Positions 6,470 to 29,215 of a stretch of DNA of 40,261 nucleotides are shown one piece after another; the stretch's first letter is position 1; each line of letters opens with the position of its first letter. Source of the stretch: Schwartzia sp. (in: firmicutes). GTDB taxonomy: Bacteria > Bacillota > Negativicutes > Selenomonadales > Selenomonadaceae. A program made the position numbers and the translations under genes. The notes beneath the pieces were generated by a model. That model was not told the DNA's origin. It ran no database searches and worked only from the letters and a program-made list of their open reading frames with translations. The stretch spans positions 1 through 40,261 of the forward strand of contig JAFVAI010000017.1 in assembly GCA_017480545.1 (NCBI GenBank), read 5' to 3'.

Positions 6470-6481
6470 CGACAAGAAACG

Positions 6482-6532: not shown

Positions 6533-6570
6533 TTATCGCTAATAAATTTTGACGTATTCGTTGTGTTTCC

Positions 6571-7749: not shown

Positions 7750-7762
7750 AGTCGTCTCCTCC

Positions 7763-9316
7763 TCACGATGGTTTGGCCGAATTCGCTTGCATAATGCAGC
7801 GCATGATGCCTTCTTGGGAGGCTTCGTCAACGGGAAGTTCTCCTGCAAAACGTCCTTCGTGCATGACGTAGATGCGATCGCTTAGCCCCAAGATCTCGGG
7901 CATTTCCGAAGAAATTACGATAATGCTTTTCCCCTGCTTGGCCAATTCGTTGATGATGCAATAAATTTCATATTTCGCCCCGGCATCAATGCCGCGGGTC
8001 GGCTCATCCAGAATCAGCACGTCGGGATTGGCGCAAATCCAGCGCGCCAACATAACTTTTTGCTGATTGCCGCCGGAAAGATTGCGGGTCTTTTGGAAAA
8101 TCCCCGGCGCTTTGATATGAAGTTTTTGCATATATTCTTCGGCCGCGTTGGCTTCGGCTTCCTCGTTTATGAGGCCGCCGGGGGAAGAAAATTTTTTCAG
8201 CGTGGGCAGGGTGATGTTTTCGCGGATATTTTCCATAAGAATCAGGCCTTTGCCTTTGCGGTCCTCCGTAACGTAGGCGATGCCGTTTTCAATCGCGTCG
8301 GCTACGCTTTCGATCTTGATTTCTTTGCCGTCTTTGCGGATGGTGCCGCTGATACCACGGCCGCAGGACTTTCCGAATATGCTCATGGCAAGCGCTGTCC
8401 GCCCCGCCCCCATAAGCCCTGCAAAGCCCACTACCTCCCCGCGGCGCACATGGAAGCTGACGTGATCCACGACCAGCCTGTCGGGGATATCGGGCGAACC
8501 GACACACCAATCTTTGACCTCCAAGCATATATCCCCAATGGGGCGATTCGGGCGCGGCGGATAACGATCCGTTATTTCACGCCCGACCATGCTTTTTATG
8601 ATGCGATCCTCGGCAAAATCGTCCTTGCCCTTGGCCCAAGATGCAATGGACTTGCCGTCGCGAATGACCGTCAATTTGTCGGCGATACGGGTGATTTCGT
8701 TGAGCTTGTGGGAAATGATGATGGCCGTCATGCCTGATTTTTCGCGCAAGTCCAAGAGCAAATCCAGAAGTTTTTCGCTGTCCTCATCGTTCAGCGAGGC
8801 GGTGGGTTCATCCAAAATGAGCAGTTTGGCATCCTTGGACAGTGCTTTGGCAATTTCGATAAGTTGCTGCTTGCCCATGCCCAATTTGTTGACGGGCACA
8901 TCCGGATCTTCGTGCAAGCCCACCCGCTCCATGATCTGCACAGCTTCCATGCGGGTTCTTTCCCAATCCATGATGCCATTGGTTTGACGTTCATTGCCAA
9001 GGAAAATATTTTCCATAACCGAAAGGCAAGGAATAAGAGCCAATTCCTGGTGAATGATGACAATGCCCTCTTTTTCGCTGTCGCGAATATCGGAGAACCG
9101 GCACTCCTTGCCCTTGTACATGATTTTTCCCTCGTATGTACCGTAAGGATAAACACCGGACAGAATGTTCATCAAAGTCGATTTTCCCGCGCCGTTTTCG
9201 CCGCACAGGGCATGGATGGATTTTTCTTCCACCCGGATATTCACCCCGTCCAAGGCTCGCACGCCGCCGGGGAACACTTTTGCAATATTTTTCGTTTCGA
9301 GCAAACAGGGCGCCAT
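7763..9316 (-). CDS. mmsA: Multiple-monosaccharide ABC transporter ATP-binding protein (two ATPase domains)
   Basis: The 517-residue protein has two fused ABC domains, as in RbsA/MglA/XylG. The first has Walker [10 protein letters not shown], the family-typical YPYGTYEG segment and Walker [12 protein letters not shown]. The second has a degenerate Walker A region (GLMGAGRTA), signature LSGGNQQK and [15 protein letters not shown]. The YPYGTYEG insertion points to the GguA/MmsA group. It powers sugar import with the neighbouring permease and binding protein. GAGGAGGG lies six bases before the ATG. It is separated from chvE by 96 bases holding an imperfectly looped hairpin, which may lower its expression relative to the binding protein. 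Confidence 0.93.
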
Positions 9317-9359
9317 GAAAAGCCCTCCTCAACGCGCCGATTGACAAGTTGACAAGTAT

Positions 9360-9395
9360 GACAATCGGAGGAGATTTTCATCCCCTCCGATTGTC
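9360..9395. other. Intergenic hairpin between chvE and mmsA
   Basis: GACAATCGGAGG pairs with CCTCCGATTGTC across a 12-base interior. In the direction of the operon (minus strand) it has no following T-run, so it looks like an mRNA-stabilising structure protecting the abundant binding-protein message rather than a full terminator. Confidence 0.55.
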
Positions 9396-9412
9396 GTTTT
9401 TGCGTCCAAAAG

Positions 9413-10516
9413 TTATTGTTTGGCAAGTTCCGCCTCGTTGTAATATCCGGAATCAATGAGCAATTCCTTATAGTTGGACTTGTCCACGAATTTTGGCGGC
9501 AGGAGATAGGACGGCACGACTTTCTTGCCGTTGTCATAGCTCTTGGTGTCGTTTACTTCCGGCTCTTTGCCGGCCGCCATGGCGTCGATCATCTTCACAA
9601 CCTGTCCGGCCAAAGCACGGGTGTCTTTGAACACCGACATGGATTGCTCGCCGCTGATAATGGCTTTGATGTTGGGCAGATTGGCATCCTGTCCGGTGAC
9701 AAGGGGCATGGGTTTGCCGGCGGTGCCGTATCCGGCGGATTTAAGCGCAGACTGGACGCCCAAAGAAGTGGAATCGTTGGAGCAAAGGACGACGTCAACA
9801 TGGGCTTCGGTGTAATGGGTGGTAAGAATATTGTCCATACGCTCCTGAGCCTTGGCTTCGTCCCAGTTGAGGGTGGCGCACTGTTCCCGGGTGGCCTGGC
9901 CGGAACGGACGACCAGCTGGCCGTTGTCAAGGTAAGGCTTCAATATATCCATGGCGCCGCCAAAGTAGAAGATGACGTTGTTGTCATCCAAGGGGCCGGT
10001 GGTGATTTCAAAATTATATGGGCCTTTGCCTTCTTTTAGGCCAAGTTTTTCTTCAATGTATTGGCCCTGAATTTTGCCTACGCCGTAGTTGTCAAAGGTC
10101 GCATAGCAATTCACCGCGTCGGTGTTCATGATGAGGCGGTCATAGGAGATGACGGAAACGCCGGCGCTTTTTGCTTCCTCCAAAACCGCGGAGAGCGATC
10201 CGCCGTCAATGGCGGCCACCACAACAACCTTAGAGCCCTTGGTGATCATGTTTTCGATTTGGGATACCTGCATTTCCACTTTGTTTTCGGCAAACTGCAA
10301 GTCAACCTCATATCCCTTGTCCTTCAATTTCTTTTCCAAATTGGCGCCGTCTTGGTTCCAGCGTTGCAAAGACTTGGTGGGCATGGAAACGCCGACTTTC
10401 ATTCCCTTGCCGCTGCCCGCACCGGCGCCGTCTCCGGCAGCTTGCTTGCCGCCGCATCCGGCCAATATCATGGCCATCATGCAGCAAAGGCACAAGGCCA
10501 AAAACTTTTTCGTCAT
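9413..10516 (-). CDS. chvE: Multiple-monosaccharide ABC transporter substrate-binding lipoprotein (ChvE type)
   Basis: The 367-residue protein begins with a lipoprotein signal ending ILAGC (Cys at about residue 21). The mature part has the periplasmic-binding type I fold: VGVSMPTKSLQRWNQDGANL at the start, VVVAAIDGGSL, then ISYDRLIMNTDAVNCYATFDN and PLVTGQDANLPNIKAI, all typical of ChvE. It captures monosaccharides outside the membrane and delivers them to MmsAB. It is the first gene of the operon, with GGGAGGT before the ATG. A palindromic repeat lies upstream, so the promoter should be between about 10520 and 10626; I could not settle on one. Confidence 0.92.
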   Translation of the reverse strand: MTKKFLALCLCCMMAMILAGCGGKQAAGDGAGAGSGKGMKVGVSMPTKSLQRWNQDGANLEKKLKDKGYEVDLQFAENKVEMQVSQIENMITKGSKVVVVAAIDGGSLSAVLEEAKSAGVSVISYDRLIMNTDAVNCYATFDNYGVGKIQGQYIEEKLGLKEGKGPYNFEITTGPLDDNNVIFYFGGAMDILKPYLDNGQLVVRSGQATREQCATLNWDEAKAQERMDNILTTHYTEAHVDVVLCSNDSTSLGVQSALKSAGYGTAGKPMPLVTGQDANLPNIKAIISGEQSMSVFKDTRALAGQVVKMIDAMAAGKEPEVNDTKSYDNGKKVVPSYLLPPKFVDKSNYKELLIDSGYYNEAELAKQ

Positions 10517-10626
10517 AGCAGAAACCTCCCAAATTTTTACCCTAAAAATATAGAGCTCTCTTCACGAGCTTCGGGAACAGACCCAAAACCAAAAAACGAG
10601 CAGTTCCCACAGATCCGCAAGACACT

Positions 10627-10834
10627 CTATATACTTTCTGGTTAAAACTTACTAATCTTGCCTTCCCCTTTGAGGGGAAGGTGTCAGCCGAAGGCTGACG
10701 GATGAGGTGTGAAACGCAACGATGAACGAAAGCGAAACGTTTCGTTTCCACCTCACCCGTCGCCCTACGGGCGCCACCCTCCCCTCAAGGGGAGGGCAAG
10801 ATGGGTTAGCAAGAATCAACCAGAAACTATATAG
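10627..10834. repeat. Interspersed palindromic intergenic element, copy A (208 bp)
   Basis: The core from 10657 to 10802 starts CTTGCCTTCCCC, has GTGTCAGCCGAAGGCTGAC and GATGAGGTG on one arm, and CACCTCACCCGTCGCC and GGGGAGGGCAAG on the other, so it folds into one long imperfect hairpin. Outside the core, CTATATACTTTCTGGTT at 10627-10643 is inverted at 10818-10834 with one mismatch. Two relatives lie at 18752 and 33754. It occupies most of the 419-base gap between chvE and the MATE fusion gene; no coding capacity beyond chance frames is seen in the rest of that gap (10517-10626 and 10835-10935). Confidence 0.7.
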
Positions 10835-10935
10835 CATCGTTTTTTTATTATGTCAACGGATTTTGCGCATTCACGAACCAAAGAACCGGGCAAAGGCGCA
10901 GAAATGCGCGCCCAATGCCGCGCGTTTCCGCATGT

Positions 10936-12735
10936 TCAAGCGGCGCCCACAGGCTTTGCCCGAAACCTGACAATCAGATTGTTCAGCTCCATGGCCGTGT
11001 TGTATTCCATGGAATCCGCGATTCGTTGGATGAGCGCCGGTCCGTATATTTCTTCCGTATCCTCATTGTAAATATCCGTGATGGACAGCGGATTGAGCAG
11101 TTTCCCGTCGCAGCGGATCCTCACAATAATCTGATCTTCCTCGATCCGCACGAAGAGATCCGTATTTTTGGTGTCCCCCGCGCGGCTTTGGATGTTCAGG
11201 AGGAGTTCCTCTATGCTCAGCGCGACGAAATTCGCGGTTCTGTCGTCATAGCCCCGTTCCGTCAGGAATTCGCTCGCCGCCTTGCTGTACACGACAATAT
11301 CCCCTGTTTCCGTTGGGGAAACATTCAGGCAGGTGTCCTGCCCCTCAAAAAATGCCGGGGGAAGGAGCATCAGGTCGTCCCGAAAGCTCCCTGTGCTGCC
11401 ATTCTTTTCCAGGGAATAGAGAAGCACGCTGAGCACGGCGAGGGCGCTCCCCACGGGGATGGAAAACCAGATGCCGACGCTGCCGAACAAGGCGCCGAGC
11501 ACAAGGGCGGACAGCGCCGGGAACAGGAACTCGCCAAAGATATTGTAAAAGGTGGAAATCCCCTTTTTGTATATGGCTCTCGTATAGAAGGAATAGTAGA
11601 ATTTCAGGAATTCGATGAAGAAGAAGATGCCGTAAATGCGCAGGATCAGGACAGCTTCCTCTGCATGATTCCCAAGCCCGTACACGGAAAGGATCGGCTC
11701 GGCAAACAGGGCGACCGCTCCTCCTATGCCCGCCCCCAAAAGAAGAGAAAGATTTAGCCCTGTCCGTACCGTCTGGCGCAGGGCGCGGACATTCTTCTCC
11801 GAATACATCACGCCGGAGAGAAGCAGACTGGCAGAGCCGAGGCCAAGGCAGACGCAGATCATGATATTCCGGAAATTGTTGAACGCGGAATAGGAAATCA
11901 AACTGTCCGAAGAGGCCATCATCATGACCGTATGGACGAACAGCATGAAATACAGCCACTTCATGACGCGCCCGAGAAGGGACGAGGCGCTCCTGTCATA
12001 AAACACCCCAAGCCAATAAAGGAGCTTTTCCGGCTTCACAAGGCGAAGCCGGTGCGCGGGAGACGCAAAATGCAGGAGCAGCACGCCCAAAGCGCAGTAG
12101 TTGCCGAAAGCCGTGGCCAGACCGATGCCGAACATATCCCATTGCAGGAAGAACACATTCCCAAGGTCACAGAGCACATTGACAACAATCATCACTACCG
12201 CGGAACAGAGAATCCTCTTTTTGCTTCCGTCCAGCAGCATGATCGCGGACAGAAAGGCAACCAGATAATCCGCGGGAAACCCAAAGGAAAGGCCGCGAAT
12301 GTACTCCGTCGTGACCTCGTGAAGTTCGGGCGCGCTTGGGGCGGCACCGAAAAACGACGCCGCCGGCCCGGAGAGGCACAGCCCAATGGCAGTGAGAATT
12401 ACGGAGAAAACCAGTGCCAAGTAAATGCTTGCCGAAAAGATGACGTTCGCCCGCTTTTGCTCCCCCGCACTCATCGCAGCGGCGCATTCCAGATAGGCGC
12501 CGACGGCAAAGACGCTTCCAAGCGTCACGTTCATAAACACCAGATTATAGGTGATGCCACAGCCGCCCATGGCGACGTCGCCGTAAAAACGGCTGACAAT
12601 CAGCGCGTCGAGAAGCGTTGCCGTGTTCATGAGGAGCTGATTGAGAAACATGGCCAGCAGGATGCCCTTCATCGCGTTTTTGATGATTATGTCCGGCTCA
12701 TGGGAGGTGTTTTTGAATACAAACGCTTTCTCCAC
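10936..12735 (-). CDS. MATE-like transporter fused to a C-terminal HATPase (anti-sigma/GHKL-type) domain
   Basis: The 599-residue protein has two parts. Residues 1 to about 455 form a MATE/MOP-superfamily transporter with about 12 hydrophobic helices, including LNQLLMNTATLLDALIVSRF and GSASLLLSGVMYSEKNV. Residues from about 469 form an ATPase domain of the RsbW/HATPase_c_2 kind: SIEELLLNI as N-box near residue 507, RIRCDGK with a candidate nucleotide-contacting Asp near 543, and YGPALIQRIAD near 564. The GTG at 12735 overlaps the TAG of the upstream gene by one base and has AGAAGG before it; an ATG 21 bases upstream is possible but has a weaker site. The role is unknown. It is the last gene in an operon with an ABC permease and binding protein. 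Confidence 0.8.
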   Translation of the reverse strand: MEKAFVFKNTSHEPDIIIKNAMKGILLAMFLNQLLMNTATLLDALIVSRFYGDVAMGGCGITYNLVFMNVTLGSVFAVGAYLECAAAMSAGEQKRANVIFSASIYLALVFSVILTAIGLCLSGPAASFFGAAPSAPELHEVTTEYIRGLSFGFPADYLVAFLSAIMLLDGSKKRILCSAVVMIVVNVLCDLGNVFFLQWDMFGIGLATAFGNYCALGVLLLHFASPAHRLRLVKPEKLLYWLGVFYDRSASSLLGRVMKWLYFMLFVHTVMMMASSDSLISYSAFNNFRNIMICVCLGLGSASLLLSGVMYSEKNVRALRQTVRTGLNLSLLLGAGIGGAVALFAEPILSVYGLGNHAEEAVLILRIYGIFFFIEFLKFYYSFYTRAIYKKGISTFYNIFGEFLFPALSALVLGALFGSVGIWFSIPVGSALAVLSVLLYSLEKNGSTGSFRDDLMLLPPAFFEGQDTCLNVSPTETGDIVVYSKAASEFLTERGYDDRTANFVALSIEELLLNIQSRAGDTKNTDLFVRIEEDQIIVRIRCDGKLLNPLSITDIYNEDTEEIYGPALIQRIADSMEYNTAMELNNLIVRFRAKPVGAA

Positions 12736-13724
12736 TATCTTACCTTCTCGGCCCATGTATTATCCACCAGCAGGGAGAAGTCAACGCGGGAAGCCAGTTC
12801 CCCCGCTTCCTCCATGACCGTCTGGAGGCGGTCGAAATCTTCCTTTTCCATCACCAGCGTGTCCTTCCATGCGTCGATCTCCTGGTACCGCCGGATGACA
12901 CTGGTCAGTGTTTCCAATTTGCTGTCCGCAAATTGGGGCCGGATGACCGAAGCCACTTCGGCAGCGTCGTGCGACGCAACCCATTTCATCCCTTTGCCCA
13001 CCGCGGCGGCGAATTTTTCGACGGTTGCCCCGTTGGACGAAAGATATTCCTGCCTCGCGAAAAAGGCCGTATAGGGGATTTCGCCGCTCATTTTGCCCAA
13101 CGAAGCCAGAACGACGCCGTTCCCTGCCGCCTCGATTTCCGTGGCTGTCGGCTCAAAAAGCGTCACATAGTCTCCGCTGCCGCCGGCGAAAGCGCCTGCC
13201 ATCATATTGAACTGGACGGAGGTGTCGATCTCCACATCCTTGCCGGGCGTGACGCCGTTTTTGCGCAGGACATATTCAAGGGTCATTTCGGGGACTCCGC
13301 CCTTCCGACCGCCGATGATTTTCTTGCCCCGGAGATTCTGCCACTGAAAATCCTCGGTTGTCCTCCCAATCAGGAACGAACCGTCCCGCTTGGTCATCTG
13401 CCCGAACACTTTGGGATAGTTTTTCTCCCCCTGCAAATAGGTGTAGATACACGCTTCCGGTCCCGCGAAGCCGACGTCCGCCTGCCCGGACAGCACAGCG
13501 GTCATGACCTTGTCCGCGCCGCCGGCGTTCGTCAGTTCCACCGAAAGCCCGGCTTCCTTGAAGTAACCAAGCTCAATCGCCGCATACAAAGGAGCGTAAA
13601 AGACCGAGTGGGGCACCTCCGCAAGGCGCACTTTCCCGGCGTCCGGCTGCTTGCCGCCGCAGCCTGCGAGCATCAAGGAAAGCGCCAAGACCACCGCCAT
13701 GATTTGCCATAAGTTTTTCTTCAT
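12735..13724 (-). CDS. ABC transporter substrate-binding lipoprotein, NMT1/SsuA/TauA-like
   Basis: The 329-residue protein has a lipoprotein signal ending LMLAGC. The mature part shows the NMT1-like start AEVPHSVFYAPLYAAIELG and GQADVGFAGPEACIY, typical of binding proteins for nitrate, sulfonates, taurine or thiamine precursors. The ligand cannot be inferred. AAAGGA stands 11 bases before the ATG. It follows the permease gene by 57 bases, and its stop codon overlaps the start of the MATE-HATPase gene (TAGTG), so the two are translationally coupled. No complete partner ATPase is in the operon. Confidence 0.88.
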   Translation of the reverse strand: MKKNLWQIMAVVLALSLMLAGCGGKQPDAGKVRLAEVPHSVFYAPLYAAIELGYFKEAGLSVELTNAGGADKVMTAVLSGQADVGFAGPEACIYTYLQGEKNYPKVFGQMTKRDGSFLIGRTTEDFQWQNLRGKKIIGGRKGGVPEMTLEYVLRKNGVTPGKDVEIDTSVQFNMMAGAFAGGSGDYVTLFEPTATEIEAAGNGVVLASLGKMSGEIPYTAFFARQEYLSSNGATVEKFAAAVGKGMKWVASHDAAEVASVIRPQFADSKLETLTSVIRRYQEIDAWKDTLVMEKEDFDRLQTVMEEAGELASRVDFSLLVDNTWAEKVR

Positions 13725-18916: not shown

Positions 18917-20362
18917 TTACATCTTCTCGTAAAGCATGACCGTCAGCAAGAATTTCCGGCGCCCGTTTTCCTCCGCGACCTGTATATCCATTTCCCCTTT
19001 GTACTTCTGCGCGCACCGCCGGATATTCGCGAGGCCCATGCCGTGCATCGCCGCGTCCGGCTTGCTCGTGACGGGCAGTTCTCCCGCCTCGTCCCAAACC
19101 AGTTTCCCTTCAAAATCGTTTGCCGCCTCGATGAAAAACAGGCGGCCTTTTTCATAGGAGCGAACCGAGATTTCCCGCGCCGCCGCTTCGGCCGCGTTCG
19201 CCAGCGCGTTGCTCAAAATTACGCTGACGTCGTAAATGTCGAGCCGCCCGTCCCGCGGCCAGTGGAAATCGGTGGCGAAGGCGACGCCCTTTTTCTCCGC
19301 CTCGCGCCGCGCCTGATGGACGATTACGTCGGTAATCGGGTGGCCCGTGTCGTCGGCGAAATCCAGTCGCGCCACCGCGTCCGTCATCTGCCCGAGGTAC
19401 GCGCTCATTTGCGCGTCGCCCTGCGGCGCGATTCGCCGCGCGTAAGCGGCGAGGCTCGCGATATGGTTGCGGAGATCGTGGCGCAGCCCTTTCAGTTCGG
19501 CGTAAACATTTTGCAGATCCTCGACCTCGCGATGAACGCCCGCGACGCTTTGCTCCAACAGCAACCGCTTCTGCTCCTCGTCCTTCGCCTGCACCAAGCC
19601 GCGGAACAGCGCCACCGACGAAACCACCAGACCGAGCAGAAGCAGACTCGCCAACGGCAGTAGCAGAAGCGTCTGCGGCACACGGTCGTAAATGAGCATC
19701 AGCGCGGAATTGTCCGCCGACAGTGCGAGCATCCGCACCGTCAGATCTAGAACGAGCACCGCCGCGCAGGGGAACAGCAAAAAGAGGCTGTCATGGACGC
19801 GGAGCGTGTAATCCTTCGGCGGGAAATATCCGGCAATCCCGCGCAGGTACAGCGCGAGAAGCCCAAGCTGCACGACGCGGCACCCCCCGACAATCAAAAG
19901 CACCGCCGCGTCATTCGTCGCCTGCATCACGGCAAGAATCGTCTCTGCCGCGACGCCCAACGCAACGGCCGCGTTCACCGCCCAGGCCCAAGCCGGGCCC
20001 CACAAACCAAACGCCGCGTGCGCCAGTGGGCTGACCGCGAACCGCAAAATATCCCAGCCGGAAACGAAGCTCGCGGCGACGAACATTTGCCGCGCCCGAT
20101 CCTTCACAAAAAACGCGCGTTGCAGGAACAGCAAAAGCGTAGCCTGCGGCACAATGGCGAAGAACCGCAAAGCGGGCTTCCAGTCCGCCGTCAGCGAGGA
20201 AACGGCAACCTGCGCGACGGCGTACACCGCCGCCCACCGGAGCATCGCCCACCGGCGGCTCTCAAAATCCGCCCGCAAAAATCGCCCGGCGTACCAAAAA
20301 GAAAGCGCCCCCGCCAAAAGCTGCACGAAAAACTCCAGCGCGCCCATCGCAACATCGGACAT
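18917..20362 (-). CDS. AgrC-like sensor histidine kinase (GHKL ATPase)
   Basis: The 481-residue protein has an N-terminal membrane domain with about six to seven helices (residues 1-235), a coiled linker, and a catalytic half. The H-box reads LRHDLRNHI, the N-box LSNALANAAEAAA, and the G-box HGMGLANIRR, the pattern of AgrC/natural-competence-type kinases that pair with LytTR regulators. The likely partner is the LytTR regulator at 28466 on the same strand, 8 kb away beyond the RM island. The ATG at 20362 is chosen because GGAGGGG precedes it by six bases; the first in-frame ATG at 20383 has no site. The signal is unknown. Confidence 0.87.
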   Translation of the reverse strand: MSDVAMGALEFFVQLLAGALSFWYAGRFLRADFESRRWAMLRWAAVYAVAQVAVSSLTADWKPALRFFAIVPQATLLLFLQRAFFVKDRARQMFVAASFVSGWDILRFAVSPLAHAAFGLWGPAWAWAVNAAVALGVAAETILAVMQATNDAAVLLIVGGCRVVQLGLLALYLRGIAGYFPPKDYTLRVHDSLFLLFPCAAVLVLDLTVRMLALSADNSALMLIYDRVPQTLLLLPLASLLLLGLVVSSVALFRGLVQAKDEEQKRLLLEQSVAGVHREVEDLQNVYAELKGLRHDLRNHIASLAAYARRIAPQGDAQMSAYLGQMTDAVARLDFADDTGHPITDVIVHQARREAEKKGVAFATDFHWPRDGRLDIYDVSVILSNALANAAEAAAREISVRSYEKGRLFFIEAANDFEGKLVWDEAGELPVTSKPDAAMHGMGLANIRRCAQKYKGEMDIQVAEENGRRKFLLTVMLYEKM

Positions 20363-20402
20363 CAAAATCCCCTCCGCGCTCATCTTACTATATCACAGAA
20401 AG

Positions 20403-20453
20403 AATGGCAAAAACCGCGAAACGCCGCGAACGACGGCGTTTCCGGCGCGAAAT
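20403..20453. repeat. Leader segment upstream of the kinase, homologous to the regulator leader
   Basis: These 51 bases match 29267-29317 at 40 positions without a gap, sharing AATGGCAAAAACCG at one end and CGGCGCGAAAT at the other. The regulator copy contains an intact terminator stem; this copy has a weaker AAACGCCG/CGGCGTTT stem. Between each segment and its gene the string ATCCCCTCCGCGC (the reverse of the ribosome binding site) is also shared, with a different spacing. Confidence 0.6.
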
Positions 20454-20573
20454 GCAAAACGGAAAGAGGATTTTCGCACACGAGGGCGTATATATAAAAG
20501 AATAGACAATCAACGAAAACCAATTTCATGAACTATTGGACAAGGAATACTGCTCGGGACGAGGTGAAACCAA

Positions 20574-23321
20574 ATGACGCCGGAAGAAAAAGCCAGACAA
20601 ATCATCGACAAAAAATTGGAACAATCGGGCTGGACACTCCAAGACATGAACGCGCTGAATCCCGCCGCGCTTGGCATTGCCGTGCGGGAATTTCCGACCA
20701 GTACCGGGCCGATCGATTACGCGCTTTTCGTGGACGGCGTTCCCGTCGGCGTGGTCGAGGCGAAGAAAGACGCGGCGGGAGAAAATATCACGACGGTGGA
20801 AAAGCAATCCCATCGGTACGCGAACAGCGCGCTGAAATACGTCAGTATCGACTATACAATCCGTTTTGCCTATGAAGCTACGGGGGAACTGACGCGCTTC
20901 ACCGATTACAAGGACGAGAAATACCGTTCGCGTCCTGTCTTTTCCTTCCACCGACCGGAAACGCTTCGCGCGCTCCTCGCCGCGCCAGACACTCTGCGGA
21001 ACTATATGAAGCATTTTCCTCCGCTCGATACGGCCGGTTTTCGCGCGTGCCAGATCAACGCGATCCAAAATCTTGACGCCTCCTTCGCGGCAAGCCGACC
21101 GAAAGCCCTCGTCCAAATGGCTACGGGCGCGGGCAAAACCTTCACCGCGATTACCGCCGCCTATCGTCTGCTGAAATACGGAAAAATGCGCCGTATTCTC
21201 TTCCTCGTCGATACGCGCTCCCTCGGCAAGCAAGCGGAGGAAGAATTTCGGAAATATATGCCAAGCGATGAAAACCGCTTTTTCCCGGAGCTTTACGGCG
21301 TCTGTCGCTTGAAAAAGCCGACAATCCCCGGCGACGTGCAAATATGCATCAGCACCATTCAGCGCATGTACTCCATTCTGCGCGGCGAGCCGCTGGACGA
21401 TTCGGCGGAAGACATTTCGCTTTTCGAGCAAACCGGCGCGGACAAGCAGCCCGTGAAGGAAGTCGTCTACAATCCCCAATACCCGCCGGAGTTTTTTGAC
21501 TGCATCATCGTGGACGAGTGCCACCGCTCCATTTACAACGTATGGAAGCAAGTGCTCGAATACTTCGACGCGTTCCTCATCGGCCTGACTGCGACGCCGG
21601 ACAAGCGCACCTTTGCCTTTTTCAACCAAAACGTCGTCAGCGAATATTCGCGGGAACAGGCAATCATCGACGGCGTGAACGTCGGCGAGGACATCTTCCT
21701 CATTGAGACGGAAATCTCGAAGCACGGCGCGCATATCCTGAAGCAAGTCATCGAATACCGGGAGCGCACAACGCGCGCCAAGCGTTGGAAAGAAATGGAC
21801 GACGACCTCGTCTATACCTCCGCGAAACTCGACCGGGACGTCGTCAATCCGAGCCAGATACGCACCGTGATTCGCACTTTCAAGGAGGCCCTGTTCACCA
21901 AACTTTTCCCGCACCGGAAAGAAGTGCCGAAAACGCTTGTTTTTGCCAAAACCGACAGCCACGCCGACGATATTATCCAAACGATTCGCGAGGAGTTCGG
22001 CGAGGGCAACGAATTTTGCCAAAAAGTCACCTACCGGGCGGACAACGCGGAATCCATTCTGTCCGCGTTTCGCAACGACTATTATCCGCGCATGGCCGTA
22101 ACTGTGGACATGATCGCCACCGGCACCGATGTAAAGCCCATCGAGTGCTTGATTTTTATGCGCGACGTGCGAAGCAAGAGTTATTTCGAGCAGATGAAAG
22201 GGCGCGGCACGCGAATCCTCGGGAAAGAAGATCTGCGAAAAGTTTCCCCCTCCGCGACGGAAAACAAAGACCACTTCGTCATCGTGGACGCTGTCGGCGT
22301 CACGAAATCGAAAAAGACCGACACGCGCCCACTGGAGCGTAAGCCCTCTGTCAGCCTGCATCAGCTTTTGATGAGCGTCACCCTCGGCGCGAAAGACGAA
22401 AACACGCTGACCTCCCTCGCCAACCGCATCATCCGGCTCAATCAGCAAATGACGCCCAAAGAGCAAAAAACGCTGACCGAAAAAGCGGGGCGTTCCGCCG
22501 TGCAAATGGCGCAAAACCTCTTGGACGCTTTTGACATGGACAGAATCTCCGAAGCGGCGGGCGTCGATCTCTCGGACGAGCACGAACCGACGCCCGAAGA
22601 AGCCGCCCGCATCGACGAAGCGCAAAAAACAATGGTACAGGAAGCCGTAGCGCCTTTCCGCCGCCCGGAAGTGCGTGACTATATCGAAGACGTGCGGCGG
22701 CTCCATGAGCAGGCCATCGACTCCGTCAATATCGACGAAGTCCTTTTCTCCGGCTACGACGCAAACAAGCAGGAAACCGCCGAGCGTGTGCTTTCCTCCT
22801 TCCGCGCTTTCATCGAGGAAAACAAGGACGAAATCATCGCCCTTCGCATCATCTACAACAAGCGGTACAAAGATCGCCCAATGGTCATCGAGAACCTCAA
22901 AAAACTTTACGAAAAGCTGACGGCGCAGGGCATCACCGTCGAGCGGCTTTTGGATTGCTATGCCGCCACACACGCGGATAAAGTAAAACGTGGCATAATG
23001 GGACAGTTGACCGACCTTATTTCCATCATTCGTTTTGAAATGGGGTACAGCAAAATCTTGAAACCATTCTCTGCGAGGGTAAACTGCAATTTTATGAAAT
23101 GGACGCTCCGTCGCAACGCGGGCCACGTCCACTTCACCGAGGAACAAATGGAATGGCTGCGGCTCATCAAAGACCATATCGCCGCATCCCTGAGCATCAC
23201 GACGCAAGATCTCGACCTAAGCCCCTTCGACCACAAAGGCGGGCTGGGGCGTTTCTATGAGGTATTCGGCGACGAGTACGAAAAGATTTTGCATGAGTTG
23301 AATGTGGAACTGGTGGCGTAA
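20574..23321 (+). CDS. hsdR: Type I restriction endonuclease subunit R (EcoEI/EcoR-type HsdR)
   Basis: The 915-residue protein has the nuclease domain first, with the PD-(D/E)xK residues Asp48, Glu62 and Lys64 in IDYALFVDGVPVGVVEAKK. A superfamily 2 helicase motor follows: Walker A ATGAGKT (Lys188), VDECHRS as the DEAD-type box (Asp314), LTATPDK and DMIATGTDVKPIECL. The subunit translocates DNA and cuts it when the target is unmodified. GAGGTG precedes the ATG. It is the first gene of the RM island, followed 12 bases later by a DUF6978 gene that looks inserted. Its GC content is like the surrounding genome. No break is seen. Confidence 0.95.
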   Translation: MTPEEKARQIIDKKLEQSGWTLQDMNALNPAALGIAVREFPTSTGPIDYALFVDGVPVGVVEAKKDAAGENITTVEKQSHRYANSALKYVSIDYTIRFAYEATGELTRFTDYKDEKYRSRPVFSFHRPETLRALLAAPDTLRNYMKHFPPLDTAGFRACQINAIQNLDASFAASRPKALVQMATGAGKTFTAITAAYRLLKYGKMRRILFLVDTRSLGKQAEEEFRKYMPSDENRFFPELYGVCRLKKPTIPGDVQICISTIQRMYSILRGEPLDDSAEDISLFEQTGADKQPVKEVVYNPQYPPEFFDCIIVDECHRSIYNVWKQVLEYFDAFLIGLTATPDKRTFAFFNQNVVSEYSREQAIIDGVNVGEDIFLIETEISKHGAHILKQVIEYRERTTRAKRWKEMDDDLVYTSAKLDRDVVNPSQIRTVIRTFKEALFTKLFPHRKEVPKTLVFAKTDSHADDIIQTIREEFGEGNEFCQKVTYRADNAESILSAFRNDYYPRMAVTVDMIATGTDVKPIECLIFMRDVRSKSYFEQMKGRGTRILGKEDLRKVSPSATENKDHFVIVDAVGVTKSKKTDTRPLERKPSVSLHQLLMSVTLGAKDENTLTSLANRIIRLNQQMTPKEQKTLTEKAGRSAVQMAQNLLDAFDMDRISEAAGVDLSDEHEPTPEEAARIDEAQKTMVQEAVAPFRRPEVRDYIEDVRRLHEQAIDSVNIDEVLFSGYDANKQETAERVLSSFRAFIEENKDEIIALRIIYNKRYKDRPMVIENLKKLYEKLTAQGITVERLLDCYAATHADKVKRGIMGQLTDLISIIRFEMGYSKILKPFSARVNCNFMKWTLRRNAGHVHFTEEQMEWLRLIKDHIAASLSITTQDLDLSPFDHKGGLGRFYEVFGDEYEKILHELNVELVA

Positions 23322-23325
23322 AGGA
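23302..23325 (+). repeat. 24-bp direct repeat, left copy (3' end of hsdR)
   Basis: ATGTGGAACTGGTGGCGTAAAGGA covers the last codons (VELVA), the stop and the start of the next ribosome binding site; it is given here as 20 bases or fewer per piece: ATGTGGAACTGG then TGGCGTAAAGGA overlapping. The right copy at 24610-24633 differs by one base. The two bracket the DUF6978-DUF1828 pair. Confidence 0.8.
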
Positions 23326-23333
23326 GTGATAAA

Positions 23334-23807
23334 ATGGATATTTCTGCGGAACGCTTGGAAGAACTGATTACAGCAAAAAAGCAAATAACGGCTCCCCCTA
23401 AAAAAGGAATGACGATAGAAAGGCAATGCAAGCGAAACCAATTTGACGCCTATGCCCCAGAACTGGACGAATCTTTCCATGTGTTCATGCGCCAAAATTG
23501 CATATTGCCGGATGATTTTTCTGTTGGATTGATGTGGAACAGAAAGGATGGTGAGCCGATTATCCTTTTCCGCTGCAATGGGCCTCACGGCGGAAATGAA
23601 AATGTCCCGCATAAATTTTGTACACACATCCACCGTCTCAATTTAGAGAAAGCGGTTGAAGATATTTTCAAAGAAAATGATACAACGGAAACGAAGGAAT
23701 ATTCCACGTTTGAAGATGCTATCTTTTTCTTTCTTACGCATTGCGGCTTTGATACCGCTGAAATGCAATCCTATTTTCCTTTTCTCTATAACATCAGTTT
23801 GTTTTGA
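23334..23807 (+). CDS. DUF6978-like protein (unknown function; candidate accessory defence gene)
   Basis: The 157-residue protein has no signal peptide or membrane segment. The central part fits the DUF6978 plan, in which a strand-rich domain carries IILFRCNGPHGGNE and a histidine-rich PHKFCTHIHRLN. The order Arg-Cys-Asn-Gly-Pro-His ... His-x-His is suggestive of a metal or phosphate site, but that is only inference. AAGGAG precedes the ATG. It is clearly more AT-rich than hsdR, so it was probably acquired separately. It precedes a DUF1828 gene by 27 bases, and both sit between a 24-bp direct repeat inside the RM operon. No activity is known to me. Confidence 0.6.
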   Translation: MDISAERLEELITAKKQITAPPKKGMTIERQCKRNQFDAYAPELDESFHVFMRQNCILPDDFSVGLMWNRKDGEPIILFRCNGPHGGNENVPHKFCTHIHRLNLEKAVEDIFKENDTTETKEYSTFEDAIFFFLTHCGFDTAEMQSYFPFLYNISLF

Positions 23808-23834
23808 TTATGATACTTAGAGGAAGTGTTCGAT

Positions 23835-24593
23835 ATGTTGAAGCAAGACTTGAAAGATATTTTGCAAAAATCGTTTCATGATAAATTTGACCTTGTGGAA
23901 CGAAAAGAAAACCTTTATCAGCTTATCGTTCCGCTTTACCATGAAGACGGGGATATGATGGATATATTTATCCGTGTATCGGGAGACTCGCTTTTTGTCT
24001 GTGATTGTGGCATGACACTCATGCGCCTTTCATATACATTTGAAGTGGATTCCGAGCATAAAGAGAAAATTTTGTTCGAGATTCTTAATCAAAACGATGT
24101 TAAATATGAAGACGGAAATATTTTCATTCCTACGACTGCGGATATGTTGTTCAGAAATATTATGCAACTCTCGCAAGTGATTTCAAAAGTTTCAGCTATG
24201 AAAATGCTCCGCAAGAATAATGTAGTGAGTGTATTTTATGAAAACGTCCATAATTATATCTATTCGTCTCTTTCACAATACGCCCCGAAAGAAAATTATC
24301 TTCCCATCGAGGGCCACAATGAATATTTTGCCGATTATTACTTGGAAGTAAATAAAAAGCCGGCATTCCTATTTACTTTCAATAATGAAAACAAAGCATT
24401 GATCTCTACGGTTTCAGTCATGGAGTTTCAAAAAAATAATTTATCCTTTACTGGTGTGGCAATTTCTGACAATTTAGCAAACTTTACGAAAAATAATCAA
24501 AAACGAATCATTAGCGCGATGGACAAAGTTTTCTATGATTATGATGATTTTACATCAAATTCGATAGATTATTTCAAGCGGCTAGCCAGCTAG
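23835..24593 (+). CDS. DUF1828/DUF1829-like protein (unknown function; candidate accessory defence gene)
   Basis: The 252-residue protein has an N-terminal DUF1828-like domain (YQLIVPLYHEDGDMMDIFI, then LFVCDCGMTLMRLS) and a C-terminal half like DUF1829 (KKPAFLFTFNNENKALISTV, VAISDNLANFTKNNQKR). It is soluble. ATG 23835 follows AGAGGA by about 10 bases; a GTG nine bases earlier is too close to that site. In 60 bases counted at 24121-24180 the GC is 38 %, against 60 % at 21121-21180 in hsdR. It forms a two-gene unit with the DUF6978 gene, so a joint function is likely, possibly anti-phage or toxin-antitoxin-like. Confidence 0.65.
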   Translation: MLKQDLKDILQKSFHDKFDLVERKENLYQLIVPLYHEDGDMMDIFIRVSGDSLFVCDCGMTLMRLSYTFEVDSEHKEKILFEILNQNDVKYEDGNIFIPTTADMLFRNIMQLSQVISKVSAMKMLRKNNVVSVFYENVHNYIYSSLSQYAPKENYLPIEGHNEYFADYYLEVNKKPAFLFTFNNENKALISTVSVMEFQKNNLSFTGVAISDNLANFTKNNQKRIISAMDKVFYDYDDFTSNSIDYFKRLAS

Positions 24594-24609
24594 GACAGCG
24601 GAAAGATAG

Positions 24610-24633
24610 ATGTGGAATTGGTGGCGTAAAGGA
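24610..24633 (+). repeat. 24-bp direct repeat, right copy (duplicated hsdR 3' end)
   Basis: It repeats 23302-23325 with a single C-to-T change and still encodes VELVA and a stop codon. The AAAGGA at its end now serves as the ribosome binding site of hsdS. It is the scar expected if the cassette came in by homologous exchange or duplication at the hsdR end. Confidence 0.8.
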
Positions 24634-24639
24634 AAAGTT

Positions 24640-25782
24640 ATGAAGCTTTTAATATTAAACGACTGTTGCACCATCACTGCTGGGCAATCTCCTGAATCAA
24701 GATATTACAACTACGAGGGAAATGGACTTCCGTTCTTTCAAGGAAAAGCAGATTTTGGAGATCTTTATCCAACCATCCGAGTATATTGCACACAACCAAT
24801 AAGAATTGCCGAAAAAGACGATATACTTTTATCGGTGCGCGCTCCTGTCGGAGCAACCAATCTATCGCCTTGTAAAGTCTGCATAGGACGAGGATTAACC
24901 GCAATACGTCCAAACGAAAAACTAACTACCAAATATCTTCTCTATTTTTTTCGTTTTTTTGAAGTGCAGTTACAACAAATGGGAACAGGCACTACGTTCA
25001 AGGCAATTACACAAAAGATTGTCAAAAGTATTGAGGTTCCTGTTCCTTCCCTTTCCGAGCAGGAGCGTATCGTCGCCCATATCGAGGAGCTTTTCTCCGA
25101 GCTTGACGCGGGCGTGGAAACGCTGAAAAAGGCGAAAACACAGCTTGACGTGTACCGTCAGGCTGTGCTGAAAGAGGCGTTTGAAGGAAATTTTGATACA
25201 GGCACCATACAAACGATATGCCAAAAGATTGTGGATTGTCCACATTCAACTCCTAAATGGACAAAATATGGAAAAATTTGTTTGCGAACCACTAATTTCA
25301 AACGTGGGTATTTGGATTTAACGGAGAAAAACTTTGTTTCACAACAAACATTTGACGAAAGAAACAAACGACTCATTCCATTACCGGGCGATATATTATA
25401 TAGCCGTGAAGGTGCTATTCTTGGTATTGCTTGCATCATCCCAGATAATTTATCTGTTTGTTTGGGACAAAGGATGATGTTATTAAGAACGAATGAACGC
25501 ATGAACAATCAATTTTTAATGTACTATCTTAATTCCCCATATTTGACGAATTATGTAGCATCTATCACAGGTGGATCTGCTTCCCCACATATAAACGTAA
25601 AAGACATTAAAGACTTTTATGTACCGATTCCGGATATAAATCTACAAAACATAATCGTTGCCTATATAGCATCGAAAATGACCGTCTGCGACAGCATCGA
25701 GCAAACCATCGACGCCGCACTGGAACAGGCGAAAGCCCTGCGGCATAGTATCTTGAAGGAAGCCTTTGAAGGGAAGCTATAA
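24640..25782 (+). CDS. hsdS: Type I restriction-modification specificity subunit S
   Basis: The 380-residue protein has two target-recognition domains (about residues 5-140 and 190-335) and two conserved helical spacers. The central spacer reads SLSEQERIVAHIEELFSELD and ends VLKEAFEG; the C-terminal one ends SILKEAFEGKL. It chooses the bipartite DNA target for HsdM and HsdR. ATG 24640 is preceded by AAAGGA; the longer frame from 24610 starts within the duplicated hsdR tail and is rejected. Base use changes within the gene: both recognition domains are AT-rich, whereas the spacers (about 25050-25190 and 25680-25780) are GC-rich like hsdR, which suggests exchange of recognition domains. Confidence 0.93.
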   Translation: MKLLILNDCCTITAGQSPESRYYNYEGNGLPFFQGKADFGDLYPTIRVYCTQPIRIAEKDDILLSVRAPVGATNLSPCKVCIGRGLTAIRPNEKLTTKYLLYFFRFFEVQLQQMGTGTTFKAITQKIVKSIEVPVPSLSEQERIVAHIEELFSELDAGVETLKKAKTQLDVYRQAVLKEAFEGNFDTGTIQTICQKIVDCPHSTPKWTKYGKICLRTTNFKRGYLDLTEKNFVSQQTFDERNKRLIPLPGDILYSREGAILGIACIIPDNLSVCLGQRMMLLRTNERMNNQFLMYYLNSPYLTNYVASITGGSASPHINVKDIKDFYVPIPDINLQNIIVAYIASKMTVCDSIEQTIDAALEQAKALRHSILKEAFEGKL

Positions 25783-25784
25783 AC

Positions 25785-26801
25785 ATGGACAAGTCTATGC
25801 AAATGTTGCTGTATCATATCGACAACGAAGATATATCTGTGCAGGTCATAGTAAAAGACGATACGGTATGGATAACGCAAAAAGCATTAGCCGAATTATT
25901 CCAAGTGGACAAATCGGGCATCAGCCGACATTTGAAGAATATTTTCGACGAGGGAGAACTGGACGAAAAAGTGGTTGTTGCAAAATTTGCAACAACCACA
26001 AAACACGGTGCAATACAAGGCCAAACGCAAACCCGAGAAAGCAAATTCTATAACTTGGATGCCATTATTTCGGTGGGGTATCGTGTAAATTCAAAGCGTG
26101 CGACACATTTTCGCATTTGGGCAACCGAAATCTTAAAGGAGTATATAAAAAAGGGATTTGTGTTGGATGATGACCGATTAAAGCAAGGCCGCGCATTGTT
26201 TGGAAAAGATTACTTCAAAGAACTTTTGGAGCGTGTGCGCTCTATCCGTGCGAGTGAACGGAGGATATGGCAGCAAATTACTGACATTTTTTCGGAATGC
26301 AGCATTGATTACGACAAAAACGCAGAGATAACGAGACAATTTTTTGCCACCGTGCAAAACAAATTCCATTATGCGATTGTCGGACAAACTGCGGCAGAAA
26401 TCATACACAGCCATGCCGACCACACAAAAGAACACATGGGATTAACTGCATGGAAAGATTCGCCCAACGGACGTATATTGCAGTCAGATGTGACAATAGC
26501 CAAAAATTATTTAAGCGAAAAACAAATTCGGCAACTGGAACGTGCCGTAAGTGGATATTTTGATTATATTGAGGATTTGATTGAACGGGAAAATACGTTT
26601 ACTATGGAAGAGTTTGCTGCCAGCGTAAATGCTTTTTTGCAATTTCGGCGTTATGAACTCTTAAAAGATAATGGGAAAATACGGAAAAGTGATGCAGACA
26701 AAAAGGCCATCGAAGAATACAAAATCTATAATGCCACACAACCCATTGATTCTGATTTTGACAAATCTATACGGGAACTGCAACAGCGACAGCAAGTTTG
26801 A
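25785..26801 (+). CDS. rhuM: RhuM family protein (unknown function, common in RM loci)
   Basis: The 338-residue protein is a typical RhuM: ISVQVIVKDDTVWITQKALA, LFQVDKSGISRHLKNIFDEG, ESKFYNLDAIISVGYRVNS and THFRIWATEILKEYI. The N-terminal part resembles phage KilA/Bro-type DNA-binding domains, and the middle has a second domain around GQTAAEIIHSHADH. It is soluble. The name comes from Salmonella SPI-3 and its function is not established, though it is frequently found inside type I RM operons. It starts two bases after the hsdS stop and is AT-rich like the cassette genes. Confidence 0.85.
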   Translation: MDKSMQMLLYHIDNEDISVQVIVKDDTVWITQKALAELFQVDKSGISRHLKNIFDEGELDEKVVVAKFATTTKHGAIQGQTQTRESKFYNLDAIISVGYRVNSKRATHFRIWATEILKEYIKKGFVLDDDRLKQGRALFGKDYFKELLERVRSIRASERRIWQQITDIFSECSIDYDKNAEITRQFFATVQNKFHYAIVGQTAAEIIHSHADHTKEHMGLTAWKDSPNGRILQSDVTIAKNYLSEKQIRQLERAVSGYFDYIEDLIERENTFTMEEFAASVNAFLQFRRYELLKDNGKIRKSDADKKAIEEYKIYNATQPIDSDFDKSIRELQQRQQV

Positions 26802-26878
26802 TACTACTCTCTGTTTATGAGGTAGAATGTTCTCTGATTTATGAAAAAATGGATATTCTTTGAAGGGAGACTCGTCCA

Positions 26879-28363
26879 ATGACCGAAGCATCGTCCTCCA
26901 TTATTTCCAAAGTTTGGGGCATGTGCAATCCTCTGCGCGACGACGGCCTTTCCTATGGCGACTACTTGGAGCAGCTCACTTATCTGATTTTCCTAAAAAT
27001 GGCCGACGAATACGCGAAGCCGCCGTACAAGAAGAAAACGGGAATCCCGAAGGGGTATGGCTGGGCGGATATGAATACGCTGACGGGGGCCGACTTGGAA
27101 GGACAGTATAAGAAAACGCTGGAAAAGCTCGGCGAGCAGAGCGGCGTCCTCGGACGCATTTTTCAAGGGGCTATCAACAAAATCAGCAACGCCGCGATTC
27201 TTTACCGCATCGTGCAGATGATTGACAATGAAAAATGGGCGTCCATGTCCACGGACGTAAAAGGCGAGATTTACGAGGGGCTTTTGCAGAAGAACGCGGA
27301 GGACGTGAAATCCGGCGCTGGGCAGTATTTCACGCCGCGCCCGCTGGTTCGCGCGATGGTCGCCTGCCTACGCCCGGAGCCGATGAAGACCATCGCCGAT
27401 CCCTGTGCGGGAAGCGGCGGATTTTTTCTCGCGGCACAGGATTTTCTATCCAATCCGAAAAACTATACGCTTGACCGGGAGCAGAAGGAATTTCTCAAAA
27501 AAGCGGCCTTTCGAGGCAGCGAGCTTGTGCCTTTGACCTTCAAGCTGTGCCTGATGAATCTTTATCTGCACAACATCGGGGACATTTACGGCGAAATTCC
27601 CGTCACACGCGGCGATTCGTTGCTTGCCGATCCGGGCTGGCGCGTGGACTATGTGATGACGAATCCGCCCTTCGGCAAGAAGTCGTCGCTGACGTTTACG
27701 AATGAGGTGGGCGAGCAGGAGGAAGAAGACCTCGTCTACAACCGGCAGGATTTTTGGACGACAACGAGCAACAAGCAGCTCAATTTCGTGCAGCATATCA
27801 ATACGATCCTCAAAGCCGACGGAAAAGCGGCGGTGGTCGTGCCGGACAACGTGCTCTTTGAGGGCGGCGCGGGCGAAACCGTCCGAAAGAAGCTGCTCCA
27901 AACGACGGACCTCCATACGATTCTGCGCTTGCCGACGGGCATTTTTTACAAACCGGGCGTCAAGGCGAATGTGATTTTCTTCGACAAGCGCCCCGCCGGT
28001 GCCGAGACGCAGACGAAAGACGTGTGGATTTACGATTTCCGCACGAATATCCATTTCACGCTGAAACAAAACCCGATGACGGACGCCGATCTTTCTGACT
28101 TCGTTTCCTGCTACAACCCGAAAAACCGTCACAAACGCACGGAAACATGGAGCGAGGAAAATCCGGAAGGACGTTGGAGAAAATTCTCCGTGAACGAAAT
28201 CCTCGCGCGGGACAAGACGAGCCTCGATATTTTTTGGATCAAGGACAAGTCCCTCGCCGACCTCGACAATCTCCCGCCGTCGGATGTGTTGGCGGACGAA
28301 ATTGTTGAAAATCTGCAAAGCGCGCTGGAGAGCTTCGCAAGCCTGAAAGCGCGGTTGAAATGA
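26879..28363 (+). CDS. hsdM: Type I restriction-modification N6-adenine methyltransferase subunit M
   Basis: The 494-residue protein has an N-terminal helical domain (LEQLTYLIFLKMADEY) and the methyltransferase core, with the S-adenosylmethionine motif DPCAGSGGFF at residue 174 and the catalytic NPPFG at residue 262. It methylates adenines in the target set by HsdS, protecting host DNA. The C-terminal region contacts HsdS. AAGGGAG precedes the ATG. It is last in the island, so the order is hsdR, two DUF genes, hsdS, rhuM, hsdM. Its GC content is high again. A strong terminator follows. Confidence 0.95.
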   Translation: MTEASSSIISKVWGMCNPLRDDGLSYGDYLEQLTYLIFLKMADEYAKPPYKKKTGIPKGYGWADMNTLTGADLEGQYKKTLEKLGEQSGVLGRIFQGAINKISNAAILYRIVQMIDNEKWASMSTDVKGEIYEGLLQKNAEDVKSGAGQYFTPRPLVRAMVACLRPEPMKTIADPCAGSGGFFLAAQDFLSNPKNYTLDREQKEFLKKAAFRGSELVPLTFKLCLMNLYLHNIGDIYGEIPVTRGDSLLADPGWRVDYVMTNPPFGKKSSLTFTNEVGEQEEEDLVYNRQDFWTTTSNKQLNFVQHINTILKADGKAAVVVPDNVLFEGGAGETVRKKLLQTTDLHTILRLPTGIFYKPGVKANVIFFDKRPAGAETQTKDVWIYDFRTNIHFTLKQNPMTDADLSDFVSCYNPKNRHKRTETWSEENPEGRWRKFSVNEILARDKTSLDIFWIKDKSLADLDNLPPSDVLADEIVENLQSALESFASLKARLK

Positions 28364-28415
28364 GTTTCAGGATGAGATGCTGATGGATGCGAATTGAAAG
28401 CAAACCGCACTAAAA

Positions 28416-28466
28416 TCAAAACGAGCTGTGAATGAGCGGGAAGCCGATTCATTCACAGCTCGTTTT
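28416..28466. terminator. Bidirectional terminator between hsdM and the LytTR regulator
   Basis: AAACGAGCTGTGAATGA at 28418 pairs perfectly with its complement ending at 28465, with A residues before and T residues after. It ends the RM island on the plus strand and the regulator gene on the minus strand. Confidence 0.88.
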
Positions 28467-29215
28467 CATATATGCACAATGCCGCCGTCTTTTGCGTATT
28501 GCAGATACCGCTTGACGAACTCCGCGTATTTCTTTTCCGCCAGCAGCAGCTTTTCCCCGTTTTCAAGGCGGATGGTGCGTGGGCCGTAGTCCTTGATCTG
28601 CGCGAGGTTGACGAGATAGCAGCGATGGCAGCGGTAAAAGCCCGCGCCCAGCGCGTCTTCCATCGTTTCCATTGAGCGCCGGATCTCATGGGCGCCGCCC
28701 GTCATGTGAATCGCGACTTTCTTGTTCCGGCTTTCCAGATAGAGGATATCCCGCAGCGCGACTTTTCGCATGAGGCCGTCCAGCCGGAGCAGGATGTGGC
28801 GGCCCTCCCTGCGGCGTACGGCCTCGGCCTCCGTCCACGCGGCGGCGAGAACCTCGGCGAACTTTTTCCCGTCCACCGGCTTCACCAAATATTGGAACGC
28901 GTGGACGTCGAAGGCTTCCTCCATATAGTCTCGATAGCCGGTCACAAAAACGATGACGCCGGAGGCCCCGCCCCGCTCCCGCGCCCGAAGCTCCCGCGCG
29001 GCCTCCAGCCCGTCCGCGCCCTGGATGTCGAGAAAGAAAATCGCGAAGTCTTCTTCCGACCGCAAAAGCTCATCCCCGGACGCAAAGGCGCCAATCCTCG
29101 CCTCCGGCTTTTCCGTCTCGATCATGCGCACCAGTTCGCCGCGCAAATCCTCGCTTGGCTCGCAAACCGCGACGGCAAGCCCCGCCCGTGCATCCGAAAT
29201 CACCCGTTCGCCCAC
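28466..29215 (-). CDS. LytTR-family response regulator (AgrA/LytR type)
   Basis: The 249-residue protein has a receiver domain (residues 12-135) with the acidic Glu-Asp region after VAVCEP, the phosphorylation site in FFLDIQGADG, and VTGYRDYMEEAFDVHAFQYL with KP (the conserved lysine). A LytTR DNA-binding domain follows (residues 148-245: ILYLESRNKKVAIHM, FYRCHRCYLVNLAQI). The AgrC-type kinase at 18917 on the same strand is the best partner candidate. The start is a GTG with GGAGGGGG nine bases upstream; an ATG nearby is out of frame. Upstream lies a TATAAT box on the minus strand at 29252-29257. Confidence 0.9.
   Translation of the reverse strand: MGERVISDARAGLAVAVCEPSEDLRGELVRMIETEKPEARIGAFASGDELLRSEEDFAIFFLDIQGADGLEAARELRARERGGASGVIVFVTGYRDYMEEAFDVHAFQYLVKPVDGKKFAEVLAAAWTEAEAVRRREGRHILLRLDGLMRKVALRDILYLESRNKKVAIHMTGGAHEIRRSMETMEDALGAGFYRCHRCYLVNLAQIKDYGPRTIRLENGEKLLLAEKKYAEFVKRYLQYAKDGGIVHI

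Follow-up and report, generated by a model that had tools for sequence, protein, structure and literature searches.

A repeat-bounded DUF6978–DUF1828 gene pair in a type I restriction operon of Schwartzia sp., a candidate mobile anti-phage module

Described systems and the identity of the pair

The anticodon nuclease PrrC is encoded within the type IC hsd operon of EcoprrI, where it has been proposed to act as a backup when restriction fails (PMC3874165, PMC2610378), and in Campylobacter jejuni the accessory genes termed rlo lie between hsdR and hsdS, rlo and mlo both belonging to hsd loci (PMC5183652, citing Miller et al. 2005). A defence system of two genes is also known in HipAD (DS-6), the second protein of which carries DUF3037 and DUF1829 (PMC13092281). 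This study concerns two genes, here called P1 and P2, found between hsdR and hsdS in contig JAFVAI010000017.1 of Schwartzia sp. (assembly GCA_017480545.1); the whole stretch of 40,261 nucleotides that was analysed is referred to as the window. P1-P2 is read here as a horizontally moving, repeat-bounded two-gene module that would act against phages and that joins existing defence operons, a reading to which a probability of roughly 0.6 is assigned on the genomic evidence.

The likeness to EcoprrI is that of accessory genes embedded in a type I operon. PrrC, however, is a single protein that includes an ABC ATPase portion, and neither P1 nor P2 matches such a family in Pfam or PADLOC; unlike PrrC, the pair occurs with several types of restriction–modification (R-M) system and also alone. 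Identity of the pair with PrrC or RloC was rejected, as neither protein matches these families. The pair can be likened to rlo and mlo by description alone, and the passages of PMC5183652 considered here do not mention a repeat-bounded insertion. With HipAD the pair shares the format of a two-gene defence unit, but there the partner is a HipA-type kinase, whereas here it is a DUF6978-family protein, and P2 is without the DUF1829 match. The same two families do make up PDC-M24, a computational phage-defence prediction in PADLOC. A search of the literature on DUF1828, DUF6978 and PDC-M24 found no paper on the pair, and DUF1829 was met in HipAD only.

An earlier note on this DNA, made from the sequence alone, had described P1 and P2 as AT-rich genes with DUF6978-like and DUF1828/1829-like patterns. 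The composition agrees (G+C 0.41 for P1 and 0.35 for P2, vs 0.55 for hsdR and 0.54 for hsdM), and P2 is a DUF1828 protein (PF08861; E=1.3e-14, 54.7 bits vs a curated cut-off of 22) that also matches PADLOC PDC-M24B (PDLC04539, E=1.8e-18). The DUF1829 part of the description found no support, with no match in window P2 in the Pfam search; DUF1829 is a domain often found downstream of DUF1828. The DUF6978 assignment (PF22398) holds through relatives, with 19 of the 21 members of the aligned P1 family matching (best E=1e-41), while the sole Pfam match of window P1 itself at E≤1 is to Pgp3_N and is not significant. In the same way, PDC-M24A (PDLC04538) is matched by 15 of these 21 proteins (best E=1e-78), but window P1 is missed by its models at E≤1. 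P1 and P2 are adjacent and on the same strand, as the PDC-M24 layout requires, and the pair appears to correspond to this PADLOC candidate.

The two genes form a conserved pair. In 24 DUF1828 loci, from a search of the class Negativicutes together with one phage, P1 directly precedes P2 in the same orientation in 20 and is convergent in two further loci. A profile of all 24 P2 proteins was too divergent, and the scan of the wider collection used a closer P2 subset; it gave 80 loci in many phyla, with P1 directly upstream of P2 in 65 by a strict test and in about 71 if six with overlapping, overextended open reading frames are included. Most commonly the two reading frames overlap by 4 nt. P2 genes with a different partner, or with none, are few. 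At one of these (L171:7815-9759) an HNH endonuclease gene overlaps and precedes P2 in place of P1, and is possibly an alternative effector; at another (L087) P2 has an Abi_2 gene next to it on one side and a SIR2-type gene on the other.

Flanking repeats and empty sites

The insert is bounded by a direct repeat of 24 bp with a single change, one copy around the hsdR stop codon and the other before hsdS (Table 1), exactly as the earlier note had claimed. The copies are identical at 23 of 24 positions, and their sole mismatch (CTG/TTG) is synonymous in the hsdR frame. The AAAGGA of the left copy is also positioned as a ribosome binding site for P1. The right copy had been said to supply the ribosome binding site of hsdS, and its AAAGGA does lie 6 nt ahead of the ATG at 24640, but hsdS could also start at an ATG at 24610, inside the repeat itself. 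An end-to-end inverted repeat was looked for at the window insert, and none was found. With a draft genome (115 contigs, 82% completeness), the repeat might in principle be a chance match or an assembly artefact; this is scarcely credible, given that the next best match to the repeat on both strands of the window reaches 18/24, that the two near-identical copies sit at two functional junctions, that the same geometry recurs in unrelated genomes, and that so short a repeat normally would not break an assembly.

The note had proposed to look for relatives in which hsdR runs directly into hsdS with one copy of the repeat, and such a relative exists. A genome of the same genus (G010) carries the same operon, rhuM included, without the pair (identity to the window 85% for HsdR, 92% for RhuM and 92% for HsdM); its hsdR ends with ATGTGGAATTGGTGGCGTAA, the single repeat copy, and hsdS starts one base later. 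Three more distant genomes (G012, G121 and G097) have hsdR-hsdS-hsdM and likewise lack the pair. Nor is the pair fixed at this site in the family, since a relative of window P2 occurs in only 7 of 150 related genomes; across the class, a DUF1828 match was found in 28 of 380 genomes. Window P2 found no relative among viral contigs or plasmids, and a more distant DUF1828 homologue used as query found nine plasmids. At the mismatch position it is the right copy of the window, not the left, that has the base of the single copy in G010. This suggests that the right copy may not be newly duplicated but may be the old junction or that of a donor allele, and that the left copy may be the newcomer.

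Repeats of this kind recur at other pair loci. The close flanks of 90 pair loci contain five clear direct repeats, namely those of the window (24 bp), L104 (25 bp), L045 (34 bp), L151 (41 bp) and L132 (53 bp), whereas random pairing of flanks never scored above 12. Such repeats are found at 5/90 pair loci vs 1/354 other two-gene blocks from the same loci (p=0.0016), and with flanks of 1.2 kb at 12/78 pair loci vs 4/159 control blocks (p=4.5e-4). As the repeats recur at independent loci, the interpretation of the window repeat as the scar of an insertion, made in the earlier note, is strengthened. They are not a general habit of hsdR tails, as 80 hsdR genes of the class gave a best score of 15 vs a control maximum of 17, and so belong to the pair loci.

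Several of the repeats come from the 3′ end of the upstream gene, this being the hsdR tail in the window and L151, the hsdM tail in L045 and L044, and the end of an isocitrate/isopropylmalate dehydrogenase gene (Iso_dh) in L108; in L132 the repeat is the region ahead of cas3. The hsdR tail occurs three times in locus L151 (7274-9935), at hsdR itself, ahead of P1 and ahead of hsdS, and these copies separate two cargo blocks, the first of which holds genes judged from their translations to be toxin/antitoxin-like. The layout resembles a cassette array, and hsdR was found there as its C-terminal part only. The second and third tails of L151 differ at three sites, all synonymous in the hsdR frame, and these differences, like that in the window, suggest that the copies may have come from working alleles. 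The changes in the L045 and L108 repeats are mostly not synonymous, and such an origin is therefore a hint and not a rule.

The same observations bear on a different history, in which the repeat is not an insertion scar and the right copy was left by exchange of hsdS alleles, a donor hsdR tail arriving behind a resident pair. This would be in keeping with the G010 base in the right copy, with the synonymous differences between the tails that flank the pair in L151, and with the hsdS gene of the window, in which a central stretch of 122 bp (25043-25164) is 95% identical to G010 and the surrounding recognition regions differ. However, repeats also flank pairs outside hsd operons, at the dehydrogenase gene end and ahead of cas3, and the exchange is thought possible but rather unlikely as the source of the repeat. 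Insertion of a mobile pair, on the other hand, is well supported.

As for the mode of movement, the window insert holds P1 and P2 only, with no transposase, recombinase or integrase; the other four inserts with clear repeats also carry no recombinase, and no shared terminal sequences were seen when the junctions of the five were compared by eye. Together with the differing repeat lengths, this is at odds with a transposon that makes a target duplication of fixed length. Integrase-type elements with attachment sites at gene 3′ ends offer a partial likeness, in that the repeats of the window, L151, L045 and L108 derive from such ends, but differ in the integrase that the window insert lacks. Recombination at a short shared stretch would fit all of the gene-end cases inside operons, and the right copy may have persisted as the source of the start region on which the downstream gene depends.

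Genomic neighbours of the pair and its host operon

The earlier note also expected a link to defence loci, and this link is well supported. Among same-strand neighbours within 300 bp of the pair, 13 of 93 are R-M genes, vs 7 of 412 for genes of these loci at a distance of over 4 kb (odds ratio 9.4, p=3e-6), counts that are approximate because the genes were recognised by local profiles and a methylase motif, and that come from loci not phylogenetically independent. In agreement with this, in a Pfam tally of 95 such neighbours, N6_N4_Mtase was the commonest family (6), with Methylase_S (4), N6_Mtase (3) and ResIII (3) near the top. The arrangements include hsdM-P1-P2-hsdS (L045 and its relative L044), R-M-S-P1-P2 (L162 and L133), the end of hsdR followed by the toxin/antitoxin-like genes, P1-P2, hsdS and hsdM (L151), methylase-P1-P2-ResIII (L138, with the same layout in L141) and a methylase directly 3′ of P2 (L140 and L112). 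RE_BanI matched two neighbours in the tally; from their size these would be the 331-aa genes that precede P1 in L128 and L140, but those genes went unmatched when scanned directly (E≤0.001), and a type II case is therefore not claimed. In L132 (9727-18365) a type I-E cas operon (cas3-cse1-...-cas7-cas5-...-cas1) follows the pair directly, and a Bro-N gene was seen in it just before cas1.

Given that the pair occurs within operons of type I and type III-like systems, and next to other DNA methylases, P1-P2 might be an R-M accessory that regulates the expression, assembly or specificity of the restriction enzyme and does nothing alone. This is considered quite improbable, as many copies stand alone or on phages with no R-M gene nearby, and the hsd systems of G010 and G012 do without the pair.

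The pair is also found with the lysogeny genes of phages. The temperate phages Lj965, 37 and Javan637 have it between their repressor and integrase genes; the upstream partner in Javan637 falls below the P1 profile cut-off, and the pair of Lj965 is one gene from an annotated superinfection exclusion gene. Pseudomonas phage 5399 has the pair downstream of cI with one small gene between, and in the satellite phage Javan357 it is beside the integrase. The P1-like open reading frame of Javan357 (L268, 2517-2981), upstream of the DUF1828-type gene, is unannotated in the public record.

This frequency on prophages, the tight two-gene unit with its common 4-nt overlap, the presence of XRE-type regulators among the neighbours and the chaperone-like domain predicted for P2 (see below) would all suit a module of toxin–antitoxin style that stabilises prophages, satellites and restriction loci, with phage protection as a side effect. 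Restriction operons are, however, already self-stabilising, and a shared defence role better explains the R-M enrichment and the cas operon case; the toxin–antitoxin interpretation is thus judged unlikely. An anti-phage function for P1-P2 is likely, a view that rests on association.

The operon of the window is ordered hsdR-P1-P2-hsdS-rhuM-hsdM from its open reading frames and Pfam matches (Table 1), rhuM being a second accessory gene. It is apparently intact, its R and M proteins keeping the catalytic motifs searched for, including the nuclease D..EAK and helicase motifs of hsdR. As hsdS and rhuM are likewise AT-rich (G+C ~0.41), the low G+C of the insert alone is no proof of insertion. The pattern in hsdS, a 95% identical core with differing flanks, is the mark of recognition-domain exchange. 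P2 could alternatively start at a GTG at 23826, upstream of the TTG.

Table 1. Features of the hsd operon and its surroundings in the window.
Feature	Position	Strand	Description
hsdR	20574..23321	+	915 aa; type I restriction subunit, EcoAI/EcoEI-like; EcoEI_R_C E=3.5e-38, ResIII E=1e-38
Left repeat copy	23302..23325	+	ATGTGGAACTGGTGGCGTAAAGGA; hsdR codons VELVA, stop, AAAGGA
P1	23334..23807	+	157 aa; DUF6978-family protein; phrog_27326 E=8.5e-13
P2	23838..24593	+	251 aa from TTG start; DUF1828, PADLOC PDC-M24B
Right repeat copy	24610..24633	+	ATGTGGAATTGGTGGCGTAAAGGA; AAAGGA ahead of hsdS start
hsdS	24640..25782	+	Two target-recognition domains; Methylase_S E=1.7e-32
rhuM	25785..26801	+	Second accessory gene, in hsdS/hsdM gap; Virulence_RhuM E=2.9e-103
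hsdM	26879..28363	+	N6-adenine methyltransferase, NPPF motif present; N6_Mtase E=1.4e-66
Regulator/kinase pair flanking the hsd operon	18917-20383 and 28466-29215	both -	

The entire hsd operon (20384-28465) sits between a LytTR-type response regulator gene and that of its histidine kinase. In G010 (L185) and G003 (L182) the same regulator and kinase genes are about 140 nt apart and the gap is empty, and in two other genomes (L183 of G004 and L184 of G008) it holds a lone gene with about 56% DNA identity to the rhuM of the window, so that this gap looks like a landing site for defence-type genes. A related operon (L047 of G142, 4306-13164) has two RhuM-type genes instead of P1-P2 at the hsdR/hsdS junction, which suggests that this junction takes different cargo.

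Predicted folds and a possible mode of action

Four residues of P1 (K16, R80, H98 and H100) are nearly or fully invariant in 63 aligned sequences. The predicted structure of P1 is of high confidence (predicted local distance difference test, pLDDT, 92.9; predicted template modelling score, pTM, 0.88), and a fold search gave no useful match (best Z 5.8), as did comparison of the sequence with solved structures. The model thus shows no recognised fold, which does not by itself establish a new one. The P2 model (pLDDT 94.9, pTM 0.63) splits into two domains, and P2 had no sequence match in the PDB. The N domain is similar to chaperones of type III secretion, with Z scores of up to 9.9; the C domain resembles the PD-(D/E)XK enzymes PspGI and Can2 (Z 9.9), but receiver domains reach 8.4, which calls for caution. 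D166 of P2 is conserved in 93% of 80 sequences and has a topological position that suits the first catalytic acid, but these sequences have no conserved ExK or DxK after it; for the modelled domain, a nuclease fold that is inactive or altered is thus more probable than an active one. One phage-record row was left out of the structure alignment.

The conserved set in P1 and the folds predicted for P2 favour P1 as the effector and P2 as its partner and sensor, and the reverse may be possible. P1-P2 would have landed between hsdR and hsdS such that hsdR finds its last codons in the left repeat copy and hsdS regains its translation start region from the right one, and both neighbours would keep working. 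P1 may then be an enzyme-like effector acting through K16, R80, H98 and H100, P2 may bind or control it through the chaperone-like N domain, and the degenerate nuclease-like C domain may sense nucleic acid or a phage product. The pair would be a second line of defence that probably shuts the infected cell down if restriction has been evaded or blocked, in the way proposed for PrrC in EcoprrI. This guard-type, abortive mechanism is a lead suggested by the analogy with PrrC, the model case of a guard within a type I operon; a guard of that type is kept silent by the R-M enzyme until anti-restriction factors release it.

The steps of the mobile anti-phage module that the sequence comparisons support are insertion, near-obligate pairing, spread across phyla, recurrent repeats and repeated landing within or next to R-M operons, upstream of a cas operon and in prophage lysogeny modules. 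Several points weigh against it. Most pair loci are not beside R-M genes, and a partnership with R-M systems is therefore not obligatory; the insert has neither a recombinase nor shared ends; some of the 12 repeat pairs in the wider flanks are ordinary dispersed or insertion sequence-like repeats (L079, L094 and L111); and the fold matches of P2 are middling, with P1 having no useful match, which leaves the assignment of roles weak. A bolder version is more doubtful, in which P1-P2 would be a recombinase-free cassette that spreads via short host gene ends or leaders, is preferentially kept in defence operons (R-M of several types and CRISPR-Cas) and serves as a guard whose action, once the host operon has been overcome, is to kill or arrest the cell, P1 being a toxin enzyme of a previously undescribed fold.

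What is added to the earlier note is the enrichment of R-M neighbours, with the cas and prophage cases, and the recurrence of flanking repeats at independent insertions. The pair is widespread and adjoins R-M genes some nine times more than the background of the same loci, in terms of the odds ratio. If restriction operons have indeed acquired P1-P2 as a guard, PrrC would have a second counterpart, unrelated to it, that works with several R-M types, and the recurrent repeats may offer a handle on how small defence modules without a recombinase enter operons without breaking them.

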